DNA of 53,276 nucleotides, from the NCBI GenBank assembly GCA_030606215.1, contig JAUWGW010000003.1, forward strand, positions 68,407 through 121,682, given 5' to 3'. Positions 3,050 to 5,805 of the stretch are shown here, in pieces (the stretch's first letter is position 1; every line of letters starts with the position of its first letter). A program made the translations under genes and the position numbers. Source of the DNA: a bacterium (GTDB lineage: Bacteria > NPL-UPA2 > JAUVJM01). The notes beneath the pieces are model-generated. The model was not told the origin of the DNA and did no database searches. It saw only the letters and a program-made list of their open reading frames with translations.

Positions 3050-4489
3050 TCAAGCTTGATTACTTTGATCACGTATAAGATTCAAATACTGCAGTATTTC
3101 TCCAACAAGGAAAAAGGAACCCGCAACACAGACTAAGCTCTCATCTTCTGCCTCGTTTAATGCAATTTTCATAGCATCGGCGGAGGAATTTGCTGAGTGA
3201 AGCAGTCTCGTTTTAGATTGCCACGTCGTCCCGAACGTCTTCGGGACTCCTCGCAATGACATATTGGGGTGGGTATTCACGTTTTTACACAGCCTTGCCA
3301 GGTTTTTTTTCAGATATAATGGCTCTGCCGCCCTTGGATTATTCGCTTTTGTAAGAATTATCTTATATGCAATAGGAAATAACTCCTTCCCTACCCCGCT
3401 GATATCTTTATCAGTACAAATTCCGAAGACAAGAACAATCTTTTTCTCCGGGAAAAGTCTTTTTATTGTGGACGCAAGACTTCTGGAAGCGGCTGGATTG
3501 TGGGCACCATCCAGAAGAATTGGGGGTTTTCCGGGAAACAGTTGAATTCTTCCCGGCCAGGTTGTTTTTTTAAGTCCCCTCTTTATGTAAACCGGGTCAA
3601 TCCCGAGAAACTCCGCTGAACAAAGCGCAGCTCCAGCGTTTAGAATCTGGTGTTTTCCGAGGAGAGGAACTGAAAGAAGGTCATAACTATTTTTGGTTCC
3701 ATATACCTTAAACTTACATCCTTCAAGAGAAATGGATTCCTCTTCAAGATAGATTTGATGTGAGCTCGAAATTCCCGGTGAATCATTTTTCATCCGAACT
3801 TCCGTCATTACAGAGTTTTTCTCTCTACATTTCTCAAGCAGAACCTTGCGCACATCCCTTTTCTGAGTAGTGGTTATGACAGGGATTCCTTCTTTTATAA
3901 TTCCGCTTTTCTCCTTAGCAATTGCAACCCGTGTTTCCCCAAGTTCTCCTGTATGGTCAATATCAATGCTTGTGAAAATGGAGTTCAGGGGTGTTACAAC
4001 ATTTGTTGCATCAAGCCTCCCCCCCATCCCGACCTCAAGAACAGCAAAATCCACTTCTTCACTTGCAAAGTAAAGAAAAGCCATCGCTGTATATATTTCA
4101 AAGAAACTTGGTTTTTCAAGACAATCCTTTTTTAGTTTCTCAACTGCAGATTTTATATCTTCTACAAGAATACATATTTTCTCCTCGGGTATCAACTCAT
4201 CTCCGATTCTTATTCTCTCCCTGAAAGAGATGAGGTGTGGGGAGCTATAAAATCCGGTTTTGAAACCAGCTTCCTTCAGAATAGATGTAAGCATCGCTCC
4301 AGTGGAACCTTTACCGTTCGTCCCTGTAATGTGAATAGCCTTGATTGAATTGTGGGGATTACCGAGATAATTTAGAAGTTTTTCGGTACGTGAGATACTA
4401 TATGTTTTCTTATTATATTTTGAAGGAGGTTTTCTCTCATAATCAACAAAACTCTCAAGGTAAGACAGTGCTTCATCATACTTGCTCAT
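3050..4489 (-). CDS. folC: bifunctional folylpolyglutamate synthase / dihydrofolate synthase
   Basis: This is a Mur-ligase-family ATP-dependent enzyme that adds glutamate to dihydropteroate or folates in the cytoplasm. The 479-residue product carries the P-loop GTNGKGS (56-62), the SSPHL folate-loop motif near 83, the EVGMGGRLDATN block near 152 and the DGAHNP motif opening the C-terminal domain. At ~479 residues it is about 40 longer than usual. Part of the excess is a stretch at residues ~410-425 encoded by an in-frame palindromic repeat (see 3216-3262). The insert falls between strands of the C-terminal domain, so activity is probably retained. It follows glyA by 9 bp; linkage to glyA makes a one-carbon/folate unit. 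Confidence 0.93.
   Translation of the reverse strand: MSKYDEALSYLESFVDYERKPPSKYNKKTYSISRTEKLLNYLGNPHNSIKAIHITGTNGKGSTGAMLTSILKEAGFKTGFYSSPHLISFRERIRIGDELIPEEKICILVEDIKSAVEKLKKDCLEKPSFFEIYTAMAFLYFASEEVDFAVLEVGMGGRLDATNVVTPLNSIFTSIDIDHTGELGETRVAIAKEKSGIIKEGIPVITTTQKRDVRKVLLEKCREKNSVMTEVRMKNDSPGISSSHQIYLEEESISLEGCKFKVYGTKNSYDLLSVPLLGKHQILNAGAALCSAEFLGIDPVYIKRGLKKTTWPGRIQLFPGKPPILLDGAHNPAASRSLASTIKRLFPEKKIVLVFGICTDKDISGVGKELFPIAYKIILTKANNPRAAEPLYLKKNLARLCKNVNTHPNMSLRGVPKTFGTTWQSKTRLLHSANSSADAMKIALNEAEDESLVCVAGSFFLVGEILQYLNLIRDQSNQA
3216..3262. repeat. palindromic dispersed repeat inserted in frame inside folC
   Basis: On the plus strand the element begins GATTGCCACGTCGTCCC and ends CCTCGCAATGAC. 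It contains a perfect 8-bp inverted repeat, GTCCCGAA and TTCGGGAC around a 4-base loop (3228-3247). Its ends match the GTCATTGCGAGG ... GACGTGGCAATC repeat that I recall as widespread between genes in many uncultured bacteria. Here it is translated as part of FolC, adding a peptide that reads SLRGVPKTFGTTWQS. A partial relative lies at 5766-5805. Confidence 0.7.
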
Positions 4490-5765: not shown

Positions 5766-5805
5766 TGGATTCCAACCTCGCTCGCAATGACATAGGATTC
5801 TCTTG
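5766..5805. repeat. partial dispersed repeat (CTCGCAATGACATAGGATT)
   Basis: The sequence CTCGCAATGACATA shares 14 bases with one end of the element inside folC (CTCGCAATGACATA at 3250-3263). It lies in the leader of glyA, between its promoter and its start codon, so it would be transcribed. Only one end of the element is recognisable. Confidence 0.4.

Follow-up and report, generated by a model that had tools for sequence, protein, structure and literature searches.

Palindromic repeats translated within genes are usually treated as peculiar to Rickettsia. In R. japonica, insertions of Rickettsia palindromic elements (RPEs) are solvent exposed and occur in IleRS, PheRS beta and DNA polymerase III alpha, and RPE-4, RPE-6 and RPE-7 are rich in ATGAC (PMC3767692). 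RPE-4 and RPE-6 of R. conorii have been assigned, together with the dRS3 repeat of Neisseria, to the superfamily of CGTC-tagged REPs (PMC3733652). Members of this superfamily carry a CGTC tag or one of its variants TGTC and CCTC, a stem opening with complementary A-T and tails that are mostly CCA; they form head-to-head dimers, have no dedicated transposase and include in-frame intragenic copies (Di Nocera et al. 2013, PMC3733652). Roles as RNA have also been proposed for REPs (PMC3733652).

The element described here lies in the folC gene of a bacterium of the NPL-UPA2 lineage, within a 53,276-nucleotide stretch of DNA referred to below as the window. Very probably, it is a REP-like hairpin repeat that was inserted into folC in frame and is translated as a flexible loop, with the enzyme folding normally and the insertion being neutral or nearly so (Table 1). 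Read on the minus strand (3261 to 3214), it runs TGTC-ATTGCGAGGA-GTCCCGAA-GACG-TTCGGGAC-GACGTGGCAAT-CTA or, spaced by its parts, TGTC ATTGC GAGGA GTCCCGAA GACG TTCGGGAC GACGTG GCAAT CTA. The stem starts with AT; outer and inner stems (the latter of 8 bp with a 4-nt loop) are split by mismatches, the inner part varies among copies, and the computed fold of the hairpin is -21.6 kcal/mol. The element encodes FolC residues 410-425, MSLRGVPKTFGTTWQS, in frame and with no stop. A first-pass annotation had reported a perfect 8-bp inverted repeat at about these residues, and its coordinates, residue range and palindrome are all correct on the sequence. Its claim of an in-frame insertion without a stop also stands, and the size it gave, 15 residues, has to be revised, to about 26 residues by alignment, of which the element itself encodes 16. 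The whole insertion looks like one full element plus the remnant of a second, inverted copy, that is, a decayed head-to-head pair, a reading that depends on 14 bases. The match of this putative remnant has a p of about 0.0025 against random 45-mers from the window, the comparison sequences having been picked post hoc, after the flank had been seen.

Table 1. Positions of folC, its palindromic insertion and a further copy in the window.
Feature	Position	Strand	Evidence
folC, folylpolyglutamate/dihydrofolate synthase, 479 aa	3050..4489	(-)	TIGR01499 folC, 374 bits
Whole protein-level insertion, about 26 residues (78 bp), roughly 407-432	3194..3271	(-)	alignments; AlphaFold2 pLDDT
Complete palindromic element in folC	3214..3261	(-)	sequence; covariance-model match G000:C17:71620-71666, E 1.1e-4
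TGTC tag	3258-3261	(-)	sequence
Outer stem, 5 bp, ATTGC/GCAAT	3217-3221 / 3253-3257	(-)	sequence
Inner stem, perfect 8-bp arms	3228-3235 / 3240-3247	(-)	sequence
Loop, 4 nt	3236-3239	(-)	sequence
CTA tail	3214-3216	(-)	sequence
Putative remnant of second, inverted copy, GAGACTGCTTCACT on minus strand	3196..3209	(+)	13/14 bases equal the inverted end of other copies
Degenerate intergenic copy upstream of glyA	5766..5791	(-)	weak covariance-model match G000:C17:74172-74197, E 5.5; sequence

Homologues of FolC were drawn from 60 genomes and genome contigs and then aligned, and 35 of them extend over the site. None of the 35 contains the peptide, and the stretch is therefore an insertion; the comparison that the first-pass annotation had proposed as a possible refutation, conservation of the peptide in distant relatives, did not go against it. 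In G001, the only genome of the same family compared, FolC has no insert; its identity is 61% over residues 1-403, and a separate match covers residues 433-469, with a gap between the two. The insertion site is a loop of variable length in the alignment, and the reading frame picks up correctly on both sides of the element, as seen from the conserved GSFFLVGEILQYL motif.

The protein comprises the Mur ligase middle and C-terminal domains and matches structure 1o5z in sequence. Its AlphaFold2 model, computed with nine aligned FolC sequences as input, has a mean pLDDT of 85, with values below 50 only at residues 403-427 (the insert), at residues 22-25 and at the C-terminus, and the helices and strands flanking the insert are modelled confidently. 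Every top Foldseek match of the model is a FolC, the best solved structures being 1o5z, 2vor and 1w78. Mapped on this model, the insert is predicted to be a disordered loop of the C-terminal domain, around which the fold is predicted to remain intact. This is the sole FolC gene found in the 1.52-Mb genome, the other match being weak, partial and of Mur-ligase type, and for this reason we infer that the insert-bearing enzyme is still functional.

The repetitive nature of the stretch, likewise proposed from the window, is borne out across the genome, in which the strict pattern TTGCGAG..GCAATC has nine matches and its reversed control none. With a covariance model based on 11 copies, 43 places are found at E up to 10; E is below 0.03 for about 30 of these, and the total is about 40 copies. 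Tails are mostly CTC or CTA, and in a loose scan 38 of 59 copies have GTCA ahead of the conserved core, against 24 of 34 in G001. Close pairs with their tags outside (head-to-head) account for all five of those listed in G001 and three of six in the own genome. The covariance-model places also include a sister class with the ends CATTCTGAG...AGAATC (for example L095-L107), which keeps the outer stem through two-sided changes, ATTGC/GCAAT becoming ATTCT/AGAAT. Coding and intergenic calls were made on individually examined loci. Most copies in the own genome lie outside long reading frames, and four are in frame inside recognisable genes, namely folC, valS and two genes for Eco57I-type methylases, so that the search for further coding copies recommended by the first-pass annotation did find them. 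The final codons of rnfG are shared with another copy (L001, G000:C1:26583-26616), from which its C-terminus and stop codon seem to come; this terminal overlap was left out of the count of internal insertions.

The valS copy (L004, G000:C11:35558-35592) is read in frame as SLRGAIATWQS in a variable loop of valyl-tRNA synthetase (NF004349, 1023 bits), for which no other gene was found in the genome. Pure insertion is less clear here than elsewhere, because the net gain over the 70%-identical ValS of G001 is just five residues and the loop is variable. One Eco57I-type restriction-modification methylase (L008, G000:C21:31075-31110) carries an in-frame copy and is longer by about 20 residues than its closest plasmid homologue, and a second, different one (L003, G000:C5:103330-103357) has its in-frame copy in a variable linker. 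FolC and ValS share one reading frame of the element (SLRG...), and the two methylases use another (V-I/A-A-S...). In G001, which has 22 strict copies, there are two internal in-frame places in recognisable genes. The apolipoprotein N-acyltransferase gene lnt contains a head-to-head pair in frame (L184, G001:C132:1500-4600), and its Pfam LNT_N match spans 190 residues against 158 profile positions; the linker of an MrfA-like helicase that has an RNase H domain contains a single copy (L177, G001:C65:20400-23500). The folC subtype recurs in this helicase, where the peptide SLRGVPKAFGTTKQS is nearly identical to SLRGVPKTFGTTWQS of FolC. A further G001 copy, at an M48 peptidase gene (L178), was rejected as coding, the likely start and the lipoprotein signal lying after the element. 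Alignments show no repeat in FolC or ValS of G001; as these proteins lack it and the affected G001 genes differ from those of the own genome, the coding insertions of the two genomes are independent. In folC, in the L008 methylase and, judged by Pfam length, in lnt of G001, an in-frame dispersed palindrome sits in a conserved gene and is absent from orthologues, which is the definition of a translated palindromic repeat. No NCBIfam model matched the insert peptides, which are short.

The strict ends are present in 69 of 290 sampled genomes, whereas the reversed control gives no match in any of the 290. The maximum, 279 strict copies, is reached in G070, a genome of about 3.9 Mb that may offer a system in which to study the spread of the repeat. 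Eleven genomes supplied 82 distinct copies, whose middle parts are self-complementary despite their differing sequences, with a stem sum of 263 compared with a mean of 198 (sd 6, maximum 223) in 300 shuffles. Because this self-complementarity beyond that of shuffles persists across differing sequences, it indicates that the hairpin is important to the element, at the level of either DNA or RNA.

Compared by description, rather than by the CGTC-1 to CGTC-4 consensus, the element resembles the CGTC-tagged REPs. It has a GTC tag directly before a stem starting with A-T, the folC copy having TGTC; it is short and multicopy, with no linked Y1 transposase; it occurs in head-to-head pairs, of which the folC insert would be a decayed case; and its in-frame genic copies include a tRNA synthetase gene, as do theirs. 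It differs in its CTC or CTA tails, CCA being the tail of most, not all, CGTC-tagged REPs (PMC3733652), and in its architecture: the CGTC-tagged REPs have a single stem of 8-9 bp closed by a loop of 4-5 nt, the present element an outer stem of 5 bp, internal mismatches and an inner hairpin that varies greatly. The GTCAT end of the element is the complement of the ATGAC in which RPE-4, RPE-6 and RPE-7 are rich, and like RPE-1 to RPE-7 it is a palindrome translated in conserved proteins, in exposed loops; in this it works like an RPE. RPEs, described from Rickettsia, have inserts of 68-192 bp in the R. japonica list (PMC3767692), which sets them apart from the present element, and a search of the own genome with the RPE4 protein model TIGR03777 (E up to 10) returns nothing. 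The comparison with Rickettsia drawn in the first-pass annotation was thus apt, since RPE-4 and RPE-6 belong to the very superfamily that the element resembles; its view that a tolerated insertion in an essential enzyme is rare has to be toned down, such a case being unexceptional for repeats of this type in the light of valS here and of IleRS, PheRS beta and DNA polymerase III alpha in R. japonica (PMC3767692). Coxiella likewise has small non-autonomous repeats, the QMITE elements (PMC5896051), which at times lengthen reading frames or intrude into them, but QMITE2 measures 150-190 bp with terminal inverted and direct repeats, and the internal in-frame QMITE cases are in hypothetical proteins (PMC5896051).

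The GTAG REPs mobilised by RAYTs share with the element short palindromes, one tagged end and copies in pairs; unlike in these REPs and the REPtron, the tag here is a GTC end, not GTAG, and no RAYT was found in the own genome, a search for Y1_Tnp returning nothing. The transposase test covered the Y1 (RAYT) class. Of the genomes with the strict repeat, 9 of 12 have Y1 transposases, and of those without it, 11 of 19. Outside the own genome, 17 of 20 Y1-transposase loci belong to repeat-bearing genomes, and none of these 17 has an element end nearby. Mobilisation by RAYTs is thus unsupported by genome content or linkage.

Under the reading that we favour, a short dispersed hairpin repeat whose end is of the TGTC/CGTC type inserted into folC, probably in the form of a head-to-head pair. 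The ribosome would translate through the 78 inserted bases, because they keep the frame and contain no in-frame stop, adding about 26 residues as a flexible loop at the surface, between a helix ending near residue 404 and a strand starting near 429. FolC is predicted to fold normally around this loop, and the insertion would be neutral or nearly so. Copies that break genes would be removed by selection, leaving survivors that are mostly intergenic plus a few in frame. That the insert was instead kept for its usefulness, whether because the peptide forms a new binding loop or because the hairpin in the mRNA tunes folC expression, is improbable: the strength of the hairpin (-21.6 kcal/mol) and the RNA roles proposed for REPs (PMC3733652) would suit such a function, but the insert is situated in a loop whose length varies, is predicted to be disordered and is present in no relative, and similar inserts occur in unrelated proteins in two different reading frames.

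Far less probable still are two explanations that deny the insertion itself. The residues could be native to the lineage and resemble the repeat by chance, a notion helped by there being just one other genome of the family for comparison; against this, the stretch fits a multicopy repeat down to tag, stem and tail and is missing in 35 homologues, so that the idea can be given almost no weight. Equally negligible in probability is an assembly or binning error that joined a repeat into folC. The assembly is fragmented (34 contigs) and chimeras can arise from repeats, yet the element is just 48 bp long, the frame of folC is correct on both sides, as the conserved GSFFLVGEILQYL motif shows, and the in-frame cases in this genome number four.

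The folC element, read as a neutral or nearly neutral in-frame insertion, is one more, solid example of something already known, translated palindromic repeats, and not a new kind of system. A limited literature search returned no earlier report of such repeats for this lineage, and querying the literature with fragments of the repeat likewise brought up no relevant paper. Such repeats are now seen in several genes of two genomes from a different lineage that also has small genomes, and the ends of the repeat have an unusually wide occurrence (69 of 290 sampled species). The insertions in folC, valS and lnt are natural ones with which the tolerance of proteins for inserts of mobile DNA can be tested. 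It is a tentative and rather doubtful proposition that the repeats ending in TCATTGCGAG...GCAATC form one very widespread bacterial family of mobile hairpins, found in about a quarter of the sampled species, with a mobiliser yet to be identified, and, outside Rickettsiales, repeatedly equip essential proteins with translated loops. If true, this widespread family would be a general source of protein insertions.
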